Assembly (NCBI GenBank): GCA_011605725.1
Contig: JAAOZP010000014.1
Coordinates: 62,001-126,000, forward strand
DNA length: 64,000 nt
Source of the DNA: Nitrososphaerota archaeon
GTDB taxonomy: Archaea; Thermoproteota; EX4484-205; JAAOZP01
Direction: 5' to 3'
The stretch's first letter is position 1; each line of letters starts with the position of its first letter. Positions 15,461 through 32,664 of this stretch are shown here, in pieces. Both the position numbers and the translations under genes were made by a program. Under the pieces are notes generated by a model that was not told the DNA's origin, did no database searches, and saw only the letters and a list, made by a program, of their open reading frames with translations.

Positions 15461-15535
15461 GCGGCGCTGGTCTAGCCTGGTTATGACACCAGCCTTCCAA
15501 GCTGGGAATCCCGGGTTCAAATCCCGGGCGCCGCA
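15461..15535 (+). tRNA. tRNA-Gly(TCC)
   Basis: Acceptor stem GCGGCGC/GCGCCGC, anticodon stem CCAGC/GCTGG with loop CTTCCAA (anticodon TCC), T-stem CCGGG/CCCGG with loop TTCAAAT, discriminator A. CCA is not encoded. A TATA-like CTTTTATAACC lies about 30 nt upstream. No intron. Confidence 0.96.
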
Positions 15536-16553: not shown

Positions 16554-16562
16554 TTAATATAG
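16554..16562 (+). promoter_or_regulatory. TATA box of the leu operon
   Basis: TTAATATAG is the same nine bases found at the ilvB promoter. It predicts transcription from about 16581-16584, exactly at the leader Shine-Dalgarno AGGAGGTG. Confidence 0.6.
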
Positions 16563-16582
16563 TAGTGGAGCGGTCTCCGCTG

Positions 16583-16590
16583 AGGAGGTG
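16583..16590 (+). promoter_or_regulatory. Strong Shine-Dalgarno of the leu leader peptide
   Basis: AGGAGGTG matches the complement of the archaeal 16S 3' end almost perfectly and lies 4 nt before GTG 16595 and 10 nt before ATG 16601. GAGGTGT (16585-16591) can pair with ACACCTC (16653-16659) inside the leader frame, which would hide it. Confidence 0.65.
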
Positions 16591-16594
16591 TATA

Positions 16595-16675
16595 GTGCAC
16601 ATGGCCAGCAACGCCCAAAGGGGGCGAGACTACCTGCGTTGCAGAGACAGCGACACCTCTATCGGAGTCTGCTGA
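16595..16675 (+). CDS. Candidate leu-operon leader peptide (26 aa, A-x-R-G-R-D motif)
   Basis: GTG 16595 to TGA 16673-16675, preceded by a strong Shine-Dalgarno. Residues 7-12 are A-Q-R-G-R-D. The ilvB leader frame has A-P-R-G-R-D at exactly the same residues; of the three base differences in these six codons, two are silent third-position changes (GCC/GCT, CGA/CGG), which supports selection on the peptide. The C-terminal end contains T-S-I-G-V-C. A hairpin (16676-16691) follows the stop, and leuA begins 41 nt after it. Function as a leader peptide is inference; ATG 16601 in the same frame is an alternative start. Confidence 0.6.
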   Translation: MHMASNAQRGRDYLRCRDSDTSIGVC

Positions 16676-16691
16676 AAAACAATATTGTTTT
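16676..16691 (+). promoter_or_regulatory. Hairpin directly after the leu leader frame
   Basis: AAAACA-ATAT-TGTTTT is a perfect inverted repeat immediately after the leader stop codon. The ilvB leader has a comparable hairpin in the same place. It could act as an attenuator or stalling-sensitive element; its A/T-rich stem is weak on its own. Confidence 0.4.
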
Positions 16692-16716
16692 AAACCTGTT
16701 TTAGGAGGGTTTCGTA

Positions 16717-18252
16717 ATGGTTTGGAGAGGATATATTGCTGAGGCTGAAATACCTGGCAGGGTGATTCTTTTCGACACTACTTTAAGAGATGGTGAACAG
16801 ACTCCTGGAGTCGCGCTTACGCCCGAGGACAAGCTTAAGATAGCGAGACAGCTGGACTTGCTTGGAGTACCCGTATTGGAAGCAGGCTTTCCAGCAGCGT
16901 CGCGCGGCGAGGAGGAGGCTATTAAGCAGATAGCTAGAGAAGGGTTGAACGCGGAGGTCGCTGCCTTATCCAGATGCGTGAAGGAGGATGTTGAGAAGAC
17001 TGCTTCAACCGGTGCACGGAGAATACATCTTTTCATAGCAACCTCAGACATACATTTGAATAAGAAGCTGCAGATAAGCAGGGATGAAGCTGTATGCAGA
17101 GCGGTTGAATCCATAGACCTTGCTAAATCCTACGGTATGAAAATAGAGTTTTCAGCTGAGGATGCGACTCGGACGAGCATCGATTTCCTAGTGGAGTTTT
17201 ACAGGAGGGTTGAAGAGGCGGGAGCAAGCATAGTCGACATTCCTGATACTGTTGGTGTTGCAACACCCTTTGCTATGAGGGAGATTGTTAAGAGGGTTCG
17301 CAAAGCCCTGAGGATCCCGGTTGCAGTGCACTGTCACAACGACATGGGTCTAGCAGTTGCGAACACGCTTGCAGGCATTGAGGGCGGAGCCTCTGAGGCG
17401 CATGTAACAATTAATGGACTTGGGGAGAGAGCAGGCAACGCGAGCCTAGAGGAGGTGGCGGTTTCCCTGAAAGTATTGTATGGTGTTGAAACAGGCTTAA
17501 AGTTTAAAGAGATATACAACACTTGCAGGCTTGTCTCACTGATAACTGGCGTAGCAATACCTGTGAATAAGCCTATAGTTGGAGAAAACGCTTTCTCCCA
17601 TGAGAGCGGTATCCATACTCACGGCATACTGGCGTCTCCAGAGACTTACGAGCCTATAGACCCTGGGTTTGTTGGAGCTAGGAGAAAGCTGGTAGCTGGA
17701 AAGCACGCCGGTGTCCACGGGATTTCAGCGCAGCTTGAAGAAATGGGGTACAGGCTTAGTGAGGAGGAGTTGAAACAGGTTCTTAAAATAGTTAAGGATA
17801 TTGGCGACAAGGGTAAGAAGGTTACTGACGCGGAACTCGCCTCGATAGCTGAAAGCGTTATAGGGTACGGGGTCGGTGAGAAGGATCGCATCGAGCTTGA
17901 AGAGCTTCTGGTGGTCACTGGGTTAAACACGACGCCGACAGCAGCAATAAAGATAAGAAGGGGTGAACAGGCTTGGAGAGGAGCGGAGTTCGGAGTGGGG
18001 CCGATAGATGCTTCGATGAAGGCAGTCAGCAAGCTTCTTGGAGACCTGGTTAAGATTAAGCTTGAAAGCTTCAGGTTGGAGGCAATCACGGGAGGCACGG
18101 ATGCGCTTGCAGAAGTTACGGTCAGGGTTTCAGATGAAGAAGGGAGGAGTGTGACTGCGAAGGGATTCAGCGAGGACATTGTGCTAGCAGGGGTTTACGC
18201 GATATTAAACGGGGCTAACAGGCTTCTGCAGATTAAGAGGGCTGGTAGATGA
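16717..18252 (+). CDS. leuA: 2-isopropylmalate synthase (LeuA family)
   Basis: 511 aa. TIM-barrel HMGL-like domain with TTLRDGEQTPG at about residue 21, the HCHNDMGLA metal motif and the GLGERAGNA loop, followed by a C-terminal LeuA regulatory (allosteric) domain from about residue 390. It condenses 2-oxoisovalerate with acetyl-CoA to start leucine synthesis. A citramalate or homocitrate synthase could look similar, but the adjoining leuC and leuD support leucine. AGGAGGG lies 8 nt before the ATG. The end overlaps leuC by 4 nt. Confidence 0.88.
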   Translation: MVWRGYIAEAEIPGRVILFDTTLRDGEQTPGVALTPEDKLKIARQLDLLGVPVLEAGFPAASRGEEEAIKQIAREGLNAEVAALSRCVKEDVEKTASTGARRIHLFIATSDIHLNKKLQISRDEAVCRAVESIDLAKSYGMKIEFSAEDATRTSIDFLVEFYRRVEEAGASIVDIPDTVGVATPFAMREIVKRVRKALRIPVAVHCHNDMGLAVANTLAGIEGGASEAHVTINGLGERAGNASLEEVAVSLKVLYGVETGLKFKEIYNTCRLVSLITGVAIPVNKPIVGENAFSHESGIHTHGILASPETYEPIDPGFVGARRKLVAGKHAGVHGISAQLEEMGYRLSEEELKQVLKIVKDIGDKGKKVTDAELASIAESVIGYGVGEKDRIELEELLVVTGLNTTPTAAIKIRRGEQAWRGAEFGVGPIDASMKAVSKLLGDLVKIKLESFRLEAITGGTDALAEVTVRVSDEEGRSVTAKGFSEDIVLAGVYAILNGANRLLQIKRAGR

Positions 18253-25561: not shown

Positions 25562-27196
25562 CTAGGTGAAAAACCTGTTTTCCCTCAGCTTAGCTAAAAA
25601 CCGGCTTTCAAGCCTCTTAGCCGGCGGAACCCATTTCCTCCTTCTCTCCTCAAGCTCGTCTCTATCGACAAGCAGGTCCAGCCTTCTTTCCGGCACGTCT
25701 ACAAGTATCTCGTCACCGTCCTCCACGAGCGCTATAGGTCCCCCCAAGTAGGCCTCTGGGGAAACATGGCCTATGGCAATTCCCTTCGTGCCCCCTGAGA
25801 ATCTTCCGTCAGTAACCAGCGCAACCCTTTCAACAAGGTTCCTGCCAACTATTAGCGAGGTCGGCATCAGCATTTCACGCATACCGGGGCCGCCTAGAAG
25901 CCCCTCGTAGCGCACGACAACTACAGTGTCCACAGTGAAATCCTCTTTCTCAAGCGCTTCAACAGCCTCCTCCTCAGAGTTGAAAACCCTAGCCCTGCCT
26001 CTGAACGTTCTAAGCTGAACAGGTGTTCCAGCAAGCTTAATCACAGCGCCCTCCGGCGCCAAGGACCCCCATAGCACCGCTATGCCTCCTTCACCTCTAT
26101 ACGGGTTATCCGGAGAACGTATAAGCATGCCCCTTGGATCTGGAAACTCTTCAACAAGCTCCCGGAGACGCCTACCGGTAACAGTTAAAACATCCAGGTT
26201 AAGATATTTTTTAAGAGTCTTCATGAGCGAGGGGACTCCGCCCGCGTTGTAGAAGTCGATCATGAAGCTCTCGCCGGACGGCCTTATTAGAGCCAGCGTA
26301 GGTATCCTTCTGCTCAGCTCGTCGAAGGTCTTTAGAGGAAGCTCGTACCCAGCCTCCTTGGCTAGAGCGCTCAAGTGGAGAACAGTGTTGGTGGAGCCTC
26401 CGAGAGCATTATCAACAATTATAGCGTTAACAATGCTTTCAGGCTTAACAATATCCTTAAACCTTAAACCCTCCTTCCAGAGTTCCACTATTCGCCTTCC
26501 AGACTCGTATGCAAGAGTCTTCTTACCCTCGTCCTCAGCGTGAGTAGCAGCCATGCCGGGAAGCGATATGCCCATCGCCTCAACCAGGCAAGCCATAGTG
26601 TTAGCAGTGAAAAGGCCGGCGCAGCTTCCGGCGCCGGGGCAAGCAGCCTGTTCAAACTCCCTCAGTTCTTCAAGCGTAATCCTTCCCTCACGGTATTCCC
26701 CGAGCGCTTCGAAGACTGAAACCAAGTCAACCCTCCTGCCTTTGAACAACCCCGGATACATGGGTCCGCCTGTAACGAATATCGACGGAAGATTCAGCCT
26801 GGCTGCTGCCAGCAGGTGGCCGGGAACAATCTTGTCGCATGAAGATATGAAAACCAGGGCGTCGAACACGTGTGCTGAAACCATTATTTCAACCGAGTCG
26901 GCTATGACTTCTCTGCTTGGGAGCGAGAACCTCATTCCATCATGGTTCATCGCAATACCGTCGCAGACAGCGATCGTGTTGAAGATGAAAGGCACCCCGC
27001 CGCTGTCTCTAACACCCTTGGAAACGTTTTCCGCAAGCACGTTGAGGTGAACATGTCCTGGGACAACGTTAGTGAAGGAGTTGACTACACCTATGAAAGG
27101 CTTTTCGAAGTCCTGGTTTCTCAAGCCTATGGCGTGAAGCAGAGACCTGTGCGGAGCCCTGTCCACACCTTTTTTTACAGCGTCGCTCCTCATCAA
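25562..27196 (-). CDS. ilvD: Dihydroxy-acid dehydratase
   Basis: 544 aa IlvD/Edd protein with iron-sulfur cysteines in SSCDKIVPG and CPGAGSCAGLFTANTM and a C-terminal TDGRFSGGTKG. It makes the 2-oxo acids for valine and isoleucine. It follows ilvC by 7 nt in the ilvB-ilvN-ilvC-ilvD operon. Confidence 0.95.
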   Translation of the reverse strand: MMRSDAVKKGVDRAPHRSLLHAIGLRNQDFEKPFIGVVNSFTNVVPGHVHLNVLAENVSKGVRDSGGVPFIFNTIAVCDGIAMNHDGMRFSLPSREVIADSVEIMVSAHVFDALVFISSCDKIVPGHLLAAARLNLPSIFVTGGPMYPGLFKGRRVDLVSVFEALGEYREGRITLEELREFEQAACPGAGSCAGLFTANTMACLVEAMGISLPGMAATHAEDEGKKTLAYESGRRIVELWKEGLRFKDIVKPESIVNAIIVDNALGGSTNTVLHLSALAKEAGYELPLKTFDELSRRIPTLALIRPSGESFMIDFYNAGGVPSLMKTLKKYLNLDVLTVTGRRLRELVEEFPDPRGMLIRSPDNPYRGEGGIAVLWGSLAPEGAVIKLAGTPVQLRTFRGRARVFNSEEEAVEALEKEDFTVDTVVVVRYEGLLGGPGMREMLMPTSLIVGRNLVERVALVTDGRFSGGTKGIAIGHVSPEAYLGGPIALVEDGDEILVDVPERRLDLLVDRDELEERRRKWVPPAKRLESRFLAKLRENRFFT

Positions 27197-28728: not shown

Positions 28729-30402
28729 CTACCTCCTTACGATGACTCTGTCAAGCGGGGCAGCCGGGGGAACCATTGGGAAAACATTATCCTCTCTCGC
28801 GACAATCACGTCTAACACAGTTGTCTCATCCTGCTTTAAAGCGGTTTCAAGAGCGTTTTTAAGCTCGCTTATCCTCGTCACTTTAAACCCTTTAGCGCCG
28901 AAACCCTCTGAAACCCTAGCTATGTCAGCTCTGCCCTTCAAATCCACAGCCATATACCTCCTGCCGTAGAAAAGCTCCTGCCACTGTCTAACCATGCCCA
29001 GGAAATAATTGTTAAGAACCAAGACTATGATCGGCAGGTTATAGTCTACTGAAACCGGAAGCTGGTTACAAGTCATGAAGAAGCTACCGTCTCCAGCTAT
29101 GTCGAAAACACGGCTCTCCGGGAAGGCTGCTTTAACCCCGATCGCAGCCGGAAGCCCGAAGCCCATTGTGCCAAGTCCGCCGGAGGATATGAATTGTCTC
29201 GGACGCTTAGCTGTAAAGTGGAGTGAAGCATACATCTGGCACTGGCCTACCTCCGTCGTCACAAAGTCTTCAGCCTTAACATAGTCGTTCAGAACCCTTA
29301 CGGCAGTACTTGGATCAACCGGAACAGCATCGTAATCGTAAAGGAACTCAGATTCCTTCTTGAGCTGTTTAACTCTTTCACCCCACGTAGCAGCCTTGCC
29401 CTTCTTGAAAAGCCTGAGAATCGTTTCGCGAATCCTGATTAAAACCTGCTTAGCGTCACCGGCGACGCCAAGGTCGGGCTTAAGCAGCTTCCCGATTTCA
29501 GACCTATCTATGTCAACATGTATCTTCCTCGCTCCCGGGGCGAAGCCGCTTAACTTACCAGTAGTCCTGTCGCTAAACCTCATGCCTACTGCAAGAATCA
29601 GGTCGCTCTCCTGAACAGCCTTGATCGCGCCTAGCTTCCCATGCATTCCAACCATGCCTAGGGACAACGGATGGTCTTCAGGAATGCTTCCCTTGCCCAT
29701 TAGAGTCGTCGCTACGGGAGCGTTTAGAAGCTCAGCAAGGGCGATAAGCTCGCTGGACGCGCCTGATATTATTACTCCGCCTCCAGCTATGATCACAGGC
29801 CTCTCAGCCTCAACCAGCATCTTTGAGACTGTTAGAATCTCCTCGTCGGAGGGAGAGGGAGGAGTATAAGAGTAGATGTAGAAATCGTCATCAGGCTCGC
29901 CCTCCATCAGCTGAACATCCCTAGGGACGTCGATGTGAACAGGCCCAGGTCTTCCGGATAAGGCTATTTTAAAAGCGTTCTCAAGCGCAGAGTTAAGCTC
30001 GTTTAAGTCTCTAGGTAGAAAGTTCATCTTCGTCAACCCTATCATCATCGAGAAAACATTAGCCTCCTGAAAACCGTCGTAACCTATGAGAGGCGTCGCA
30101 ACCTGGCCGGCTATGCTTAAAACCGGCGAGGAATCCAAGTAGGCGTTGGCAATTCCTGTTGCAAGATTAGTGGCGCCAGGGCCGGATGTGGCGACGACAA
30201 CGCCAATCCTGCCGGTTGCCCTAGCATACCCGTCAGCCATGTGGGCAGCACCCTGCTCATGCCTCGCGAGAATGAACTCTATGTCGCCAGCCTTATAAAG
30301 CTCGTCTAGAAACGGGAGCACAGCCCCACCGGGTACTCCGAAGATGGTTTTAACCCCGTTCTCCCTCAGCTTCTCAACTAGTAGTCTAGACCCTGAAACC
30401 AT
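28729..30402 (-). CDS. ilvB: Acetolactate synthase large (catalytic) subunit
   Basis: 557 aa thiamine-diphosphate enzyme: catalytic Glu in RHEQGAAHMADGYARATG, FAD/quinone-like middle domain, and the ThDP motif GDGSFFMTCNQLPVSVDYNLPIIVLVLNN. It makes acetolactate or acetohydroxybutyrate. I chose ATG 30402, preceded by GAGGTG at 6-nt spacing; the in-frame TTG at 30420 lies over that site. First structural gene of the operon. Confidence 0.95.
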   Translation of the reverse strand: MVSGSRLLVEKLRENGVKTIFGVPGGAVLPFLDELYKAGDIEFILARHEQGAAHMADGYARATGRIGVVVATSGPGATNLATGIANAYLDSSPVLSIAGQVATPLIGYDGFQEANVFSMMIGLTKMNFLPRDLNELNSALENAFKIALSGRPGPVHIDVPRDVQLMEGEPDDDFYIYSYTPPSPSDEEILTVSKMLVEAERPVIIAGGGVIISGASSELIALAELLNAPVATTLMGKGSIPEDHPLSLGMVGMHGKLGAIKAVQESDLILAVGMRFSDRTTGKLSGFAPGARKIHVDIDRSEIGKLLKPDLGVAGDAKQVLIRIRETILRLFKKGKAATWGERVKQLKKESEFLYDYDAVPVDPSTAVRVLNDYVKAEDFVTTEVGQCQMYASLHFTAKRPRQFISSGGLGTMGFGLPAAIGVKAAFPESRVFDIAGDGSFFMTCNQLPVSVDYNLPIIVLVLNNYFLGMVRQWQELFYGRRYMAVDLKGRADIARVSEGFGAKGFKVTRISELKNALETALKQDETTVLDVIVAREDNVFPMVPPAAPLDRVIVRR

Positions 30403-30447: not shown

Positions 30448-30531
30448 CTAGCGGAGGCTGGGTTTGCAGCGGGACTCCTGCAGTTGGTGGACGGTGTCCC
30501 GCCCCCTTGGAGCGTGAATATTATGGTACAC
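30448..30531 (-). CDS. Candidate ilv-operon leader peptide (27 aa, A-x-R-G-R-D motif)
   Basis: GTG at 30531 to TAG at 30450-30448, 6 nt after the Shine-Dalgarno AGGAGGTG (30545-30538). Residues 7-12 are A-P-R-G-R-D, aligned without gaps from the start codon with A-Q-R-G-R-D of the leu leader peptide. The bases around the motif form a possible hairpin CGCTCC-AAG-GGGGCG, also present in the leu leader (CGCCC/GGGCG). GGAGG of the Shine-Dalgarno can pair with CCTCC (minus strand, 30457-30453) in the last codons. Function is inference. Confidence 0.6.
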   Translation of the reverse strand: MYHNIHAPRGRDTVHQLQESRCKPSLR

Positions 30532-30537
30532 TCAGCG

Positions 30538-30545
30538 CACCTCCT
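30538..30545 (-). promoter_or_regulatory. Strong Shine-Dalgarno of the ilv leader peptide
   Basis: AGGAGGTG, identical to the leu leader element, sits at the predicted 5' end of the transcript and 6 nt before GTG 30531. Confidence 0.6.
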
Positions 30546-30568: not shown

Positions 30569-30577
30569 CTATATTAA
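30569..30577 (-). promoter_or_regulatory. TATA box of the ilv operon
   Basis: TTAATATAG on the minus strand, identical to the leu-operon box, predicts transcription from about 30549. Confidence 0.6.
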
Positions 30578-32589: not shown

Positions 32590-32664
32590 GCGGCGCTGGT
32601 CTAACCTGGTTATGACACCAGCCCCCCAAGCTGGGAACTCCGGGTTCAAATCCCGGGCGCCGCA
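32590..32664 (+). tRNA. tRNA-Gly(CCC), with C at position 33
   Basis: Same body as tRNA-Gly(TCC) at 15461: GCGGCGC/GCGCCGC, anticodon stem CCAGC/GCTGG, T-stem CCGGG/CCCGG. The anticodon loop is CCCCCAA, so the anticodon is CCC and position 33, nearly always U, is C. CTTTTATTAACC about 25-30 nt upstream fits a TATA box. Confidence 0.93.

Follow-up and report, generated by a model that had tools for sequence, protein, structure and literature searches.

Two operons of branched-chain amino acid synthesis in one archaeal genome, those of leuA and ilvB, are each preceded by a short open frame that spells A-x-R-G-R-D. Is this peptide what selection keeps in the two leaders, or is it the RNA, or a site on the DNA, and what might the conserved sequence do? 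The locus lies in a 64,000-nucleotide stretch of contig JAAOZP010000014.1, here called the window, from a genome of 2.23 Mb whose closest named relatives include hot-spring Brockarchaeota assemblies, most of them from springs at about 56-70 C (PMC8065059). The original prediction placed a near-perfect Shine-Dalgarno sequence (SD) at the predicted transcript start, followed by a GTG-started frame of 26 codons, ahead of leuA. Both were found there and the coordinates proved correct; the SD is fully complementary to GGATCACCTCCT, the 3' end of the 16S rRNA of the same genome. The parts of the leuA leader, all on the + strand, are as follows (clades A and B are defined below).

16554-16561, + strand: TATA box, TTAATATA, common to all leaders, with AAAG BRE-like bases just 5'; the predicted transcript start is about 25 nt 3' of it
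16583-16590, + strand: leader SD (SD1), AGGAGGTG, complementary to the genome's own 16S 3' end; clade A and clade B have the same SD1 sequence in their leuA leaders
16584-16591, + strand: 5' strand of pairing P1, overlapping SD1
16588-16600, + strand: possible hairpin H1, GTGTA (16588-16592) with TGCAC (16596-16600)
16595-16675, + strand: leader frame, GTG (16595-16597) to TGA (16673-16675), 26 codons, with AQRGRD as residues 7-12; an alternative start, ATG at 16601-16603, is the start conserved in clade A
16612-16626, + strand: hairpin S, CGCCC (16612-16616) with GGGCG (16622-16626)
16618-16630, + strand: conserved core, AAGGGGGCGAGAC (consensus AAGGRGGCGRGAY), SD-like
16653-16660, + strand: anti-SD segment, ACACCTCT, the 3' strand of P1
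16703-16709, + strand: SD of leuA itself (SD2), AGGAGGG
16717-18252, + strand: leuA, 2-isopropylmalate synthase (NF002085, above cut-off)

A MarC/NAAT-family transporter gene (TIGR00427, 15846-16538) ends 16 bp 5' of the TATA box, and the end of the same gene also precedes the leuA leader in the other genomes of the genus. A pair of tRNA-Gly genes, with anticodons TCC and CCC, lies at 15461-15535 and 32590-32664. Their closeness to leuA (about 1 kb upstream) and to ilvB (about 2 kb upstream), respectively, is probably a coincidence. Genome G000 encodes three further paralogs resembling isopropylmalate, citramalate or homocitrate synthases (G000:C19:97399, G000:C4:128481 and G000:C4:107445), with 31-35% identity to leuA; the core motif was not found near any of them.

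The leader of ilvB, which is followed by ilvN, ilvC and another ORF at 25562-27196 in a minus-strand operon, has the same arrangement of TATA box, SD and short frame, between 30577 and 30400.

30570-30577, - strand: TATA box, TTAATATA
30538-30545, - strand: leader SD, AGGAGGTG
30448-30531, - strand: leader frame, GTG (30531-30529) to TAG (30450-30448), 27 codons, with APRGRD as the counterpart of AQRGRD
30496-30508, - strand: conserved core, AAGGGGGCGGGAC
30481-30512, - strand: long conserved block, the GCTCCAAGGGGGCGGGACACCGTCCACCAACTG region, which contains hairpin P3 and is kept in G009, a genome of another family in the same order
30506-30500 with 30493-30489 and 30487-30486, - strand: hairpin P3, with a one-base bulge
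30453-30458, - strand: anti-SD segment, GCCTCC, making 6 bp with SD1
28729-30402, - strand: ilvB, acetolactate synthase large subunit, starting at ATG 30402-30400

As had been noticed originally, the six motif codons of the two frames differ at three bases, two of the differences being silent.

The leader was then followed into relatives. The genus sample comprises eight genomes, the window's own and seven others, which fall into clade A (G000 and G003-G006) and clade B (G001, G002 and G007) and provide 15 leaders, seven of them from leuA. With one mismatch allowed, the degenerate core motif matches the window twice against 0.06 matches expected, and an 18-base pattern of the core, again with one mismatch, is found before both leuA and ilvB in seven of the eight genomes. 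The eighth, G001 (a 70% complete assembly), has the ilvB leader and a second match elsewhere, its leuA ortholog not having been recovered, so that the core precedes leuA or ilvB in every genus genome where those genes were recovered. Conservation in relatives is thus borne out: the motif stands before both genes genus-wide, G009 has it ahead of ilvB, and the frame is open in all leaders. In G009 the element before ilvB, AAGGGGGCGATACCCCGTCTACCAA, scores 41.9 bits with model R2, and no leader element was seen upstream of leuA. The ilvB gene of G009 (L138, G009:C76:25569-26971) is itself split in two, and its first piece contains a TAG; this is either an assembly error or a real break.

Beyond the order the trail ends. 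Model R1, run over 398 Thermoproteota genomes, retrieved no leaders but the 15 of the genus, which score 58-71 bits; three further matches, ranked below them at 30.5, 27.3 and 23.7 bits, fall within long ORFs and were put down to chance. The roughly 390 other Thermoproteota genomes contained no credible occurrence, their matches being at chance level; four one-mismatch matches to the ilvB pattern occur in distant genomes. A third copy of the full leader was not seen in 12 genomes of the order, where a looser pattern gave extra matches; the weak R2 matches that were opened, in G000 and G005, lie inside long ORFs, and there is another at G009:C8. RGR-like codons before leuA in distant archaea are scattered, with no leader-like arrangement. 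Since the genus and G009 carry the element and wider matches do not rise above chance, it was probably ancestral in the order, at least for ilvB, and is now narrowly distributed.

The original prediction took the conserved unit to be a leader or arrest peptide, and a codon substitution test set beforehand goes against this. At four-fold silent sites the main leuA and ilvB genes are only 36-38% identical between clades, which is to say saturated, and 22% identical between G000 and G009. By comparison, the four-fold codons of the leader core are identical between clades at all four comparable positions in leuA and at five of six in ilvB, and at four of four between G007 and G009. On a back-of-envelope calculation that treats sites as independent, identity of this extent at a neutral rate of about 0.37 has a chance of roughly 0.02-0.03 per gene. 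The encoded residues, meanwhile, do change (Q/L/I, Y/N, T/P, G to R, D to Y), and one codon encodes H, R, P or Y while its first and third bases barely vary. There is no codon periodicity, identity by codon position being.60/.52/.61 in leuA and.80/.80/.78 in ilvB. The second Arg of the motif is always CGA or CGG, which make up 7% of Arg codons in the window. The GTG start of the leuA frame is replaced by ATA or ACA in four of the seven leaders (G003-G006), in which the ATG two codons on takes over; the motif accordingly sits at residues 7-12 in the two frames of the window, as claimed, but not in these four. Finally, Ile, Leu and Val account for 14.3% of leader residues, in runs of two at most, against 25.8% in the proteins of the window. 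Because silent sites are mostly frozen while residues change, periodicity is absent, the second Arg never departs from CGR, four leuA leaders have lost the GTG start and branched-chain residues are depleted, it is on the bases that selection acts, A-x-R-G-R-D being mostly what those bases happen to spell. An arrest or attenuator peptide as the conserved unit was rejected on the substitution pattern, the loss of the start codon and the depletion of Ile, Leu and Val. The case also illustrates that a conserved motif in a short ORF can arise as a by-product of constraint at the base level.

Might the nascent A-x-R-G-R-D nevertheless, alone or with a ligand, stall the ribosome and thereby control the downstream gene? 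An in-frame RGR is present in every leader, that of G009 (which reads TRGRY) included, except the ilvB leader of G001, which reads APRRRD; a strong leader SD with an in-frame start, in one of three start arrangements, is present in every genus leader; and the leuA leader stop is a single position occupied by three different codons, TGA, TAG and TAA. These points favour a translated peptide. However, the amino acid changes are radical and no peptide sequence is kept beyond the core in any of the leaders compared, which, with the silent-site and start-codon evidence above, leads us to consider such stalling very improbable.

Translation of the frame is another matter. The SD at the 5' end, the in-frame starts, the stops and the base at core position 8 are each weak arguments alone, but the frame is probably translated. 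The last of these concerns pairing between the core and the 16S 3' end, which would gain 3.9 kcal/mol if C8 were U, a change that creates an in-frame UGA. The predicted translated frame may take part in the mechanism. One form this could take is a ribosome pause, in which the SD-like core holds the translating ribosome with a marked codon at the decoding site 9 nt downstream, and tRNA charging or pausing there sets the folding of the anti-SD. Two codons after the motif's Asp (Tyr in G009) there is indeed CTG (Leu) in 7/7 leuA leaders and GTC (Val) in 9/9 ilvB leaders. Pairing of the core with the genome's own 16S 3' end is worth -11.0 to -13.5 kcal/mol (SD1 reaches -14.3), whereas about 1% of 13-mers in the window reach -11; the variable purines at core positions 5 and 10 lie opposite U, so pairing is kept, and C8, whose repair would make the stop, is the sole mismatch. 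Yet a G-rich core pairs easily with an anti-SD (shuffle p 0.001-0.14), one Leu or Val codon offers little basis for attenuation in a frame depleted of such codons overall, and frozen bases outside the core, GCY on its 5' side and CCGTC and CCAACTG on its 3' side in ilvB, are left unexplained. The CTG/GTC codon might serve a pause-based attenuator as its sensing codon, or it might be a by-product of stems that contain those bases. We regard the pause as unlikely overall.

If bases are what is kept, they may be kept in DNA or in RNA. Between clades, the spacer from TATA box to SD is conserved at 0.29 in leuA and 0.34 in ilvB, which is background. The SD then stands at 1.00 and 0.96, the interval from SD to core at 0.39 and 0.65, and the core at 0.96 and 0.85, conservation thus setting in at the predicted transcript start. 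The distance from SD to core is 29 nt in 14 of the 15 leaders and 27 in the leuA leader of G000. Considered as a possible DNA operator, the site is base-conserved, asymmetric, confined to transcribed sequence and at a fixed distance from the SD. With conservation that jumps at the SD and a fixed spacing to the core, the pattern fits a transcribed element better than an operator. A regulatory protein could still repress both operons from a site on the DNA 3' of the promoter, or on the nascent RNA, the frame being incidental: each genome has two sites, one at each target operon, the motif is directional and conserved by base, and a GCCC..GGGC inverted repeat is present in most leaders. Such a protein would not account for an SD as well conserved as the core, nor for conservation that begins at the transcript start rather than at the promoter. 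G009, moreover, has no inverted repeat, the ilvB repeat differs from a DNA palindrome in its one-base bulge and in a G-T mismatch that never varies, and no regulator gene was identified. We therefore think a protein site doubtful.

Structural support for a leader RNA is moderate and comes from predicted pairings. The leader SD of leuA had been proposed to pair with 16653-16659; the ACACCTC found there is indeed complementary to it, and SD/anti-SD complementarity extends to all 15 leaders of the genus. In the seven leuA leaders this pairing, P1, consists of eight contiguous pairs out of eight, at a constant offset from the stop, and in the ilvB leaders of six or seven. Its shuffle p is 0.02-0.08 per leuA leader and 0.02-0.06 in two clade B ilvB leaders; in the ilvB leaders of clade A and of G001 it is not significant by shuffling. 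H1 (GUGYR/YRYRC, at the SD) is paired in all 11 distinct aligned leaders with two compensatory pairs, and 3 of 3000 column shuffles were as good, but in most leaders it is marginal or unstable at 65 C, and such matches are inflated by its alternation of purines and pyrimidines. In hairpin S (YGCYC/GGGCG) 93% of cells pair and changes are one-sided, so that it has no support beyond pairing. In P3 (GGRGGCG-loop-CGTCC-N-CC) 97% of cells pair, most substitutions affect the loop, the bulge or pair 7-22, and the ilvB leaders show no covariation.

Two compensatory pairs between G007 and G002 were seen in a leuA hairpin after ACC, and a covariation scan within the leuA set or the ilvB set alone did not exceed column shuffles. 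The hairpin expected after the leuA leader stop (AAAACAATATTGTTTT) is there in the window but is not conserved in clade B. Single-sequence folding z-scores are modest: the genus average is about -1.4, and G001 and G009 have positive values. In the leuA leaders of G007 and G002 (L102 and L103) the lowest-energy fold forms a four-way junction whose 7-nt loop contains AAG, which bears a superficial resemblance to a tRNA-Leu cloverleaf. A tRNA-like cloverleaf was rejected because clade A, the ilvB leaders and G009 do not share its arms and the tRNA model gives no score. A T-box was likewise rejected: Rfam has no match, and a UGG bulge was not seen in the core. No one fold fits all leaders, and for that reason a switch is proposed here rather than claimed.

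Constraint on nucleotides, specificity for two operons, confinement to transcribed sequence and conserved complementarity are all observed. The reading we prefer, tentatively and at somewhat less than an even chance, is that the leuA and ilvB operons share a cis-acting regulatory leader whose RNA sequence, rather than the peptide it encodes, is what selection keeps. We infer a switch, its input and its direction as follows. Transcription would start at or just 5' of the perfect SD. The core, AAGGRGGCGRGAY, at a fixed 29 nt downstream, would sit in small hairpins, S in leuA and P3 in ilvB, and a segment complementary to the leader SD would come near the end of the frame. This anti-SD could have one of three partners: the leader SD (P1), the SD of the gene itself, or a ribosome that covers it while finishing the leader frame. 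The last is conceivable because the anti-SD lies, across leaders, from 20 nt before to 8 nt after the leader stop. The state of branched-chain amino acids would be read by the core via a ligand, a protein or the ribosome, and this reading would shift the anti-SD between its partners and so set the output of LeuA and IlvB. Being common to both leaders, the core is likely to be the sensing part. Since the anti-SD makes only 5 bp with the SD of leuA (-5.3 kcal/mol), repression through the gene's SD may need help; control of leader loading or of mRNA stability would be alternatives. The fuller proposal is a good deal more speculative and, we think, rather unlikely as it stands. In it the leader would belong to a new class of cis-regulatory RNAs in archaea, responding to a branched-chain amino acid or to the state of its synthesis; exclusive SD/anti-SD pairings, linked to translation of the short frame within the RNA, would then control leuA and ilvB. 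If true, it would make the leader an amino-acid-responsive RNA switch in archaea, where RNA-level tuning of amino acid synthesis is almost unknown and very few such gene-control elements are known. Two leaders on two operons of one pathway in one genome also amount to a natural experiment, in which the common part is the likely sensor and the differing part the platform.

How does the leader compare with known systems? Translational attenuators of the ermC type have the order leader SD, short frame, anti-SD and gene SD, with exclusive pairings. The same order and exclusive pairings are proposed here, but the leader has no conserved arrest peptide, and for its anti-SD the leader SD is a better partner than the gene SD is. 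Escherichia coli prfB has an internal SD, AGGGGG, 3 nt from its marked codon; an SD-like AGGRGG lies inside the frame here too, although the spacing is 9 nt and no frameshift site was seen.

Rfam covariance models, that of the T-box included, gave no family matching the leader, and the literature searched, which was confined to open-licence papers so that absence is not proof, held no archaeal amino acid leader. As far as these searches go, the novelty originally suggested for archaea stands for the leader, specific to two branched-chain amino acid operons, but not for the peptide as a conserved unit. Of the closest systems met in that literature, one group is bacterial: the ilvB uORF motifs, ilvB-II and other leader-peptide attenuators of branched-chain amino acid genes, and ilvBNC of Corynebacterium (PMC10272879). 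Their peptides are rich in branched-chain codons and act by transcription attenuation, whereas here such codons are depleted and the constraint is on bases. Of the start and stop that with an SD mark such attenuators, the SD and stop are kept here and the leuA start moves from GTG to ATG; no conserved terminator hairpin of the bacterial form was seen, archaeal terminators being different. In archaea, the fluoride riboswitch of Thermococcus kodakarensis was named in a 2021 paper as the only natural riboswitch shown by experiment (PMC8241225). It differs from the present leader in sequence and target genes but resembles it as a cis-acting leader RNA of a thermophilic archaeon with presumed translational action. 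Beside it, the leuA and ilvB leader would be an undescribed gene-control element, an orphan cis-regulatory RNA, and, if confirmed, would allow feedback at the RNA level to be tested in archaea of hot springs.
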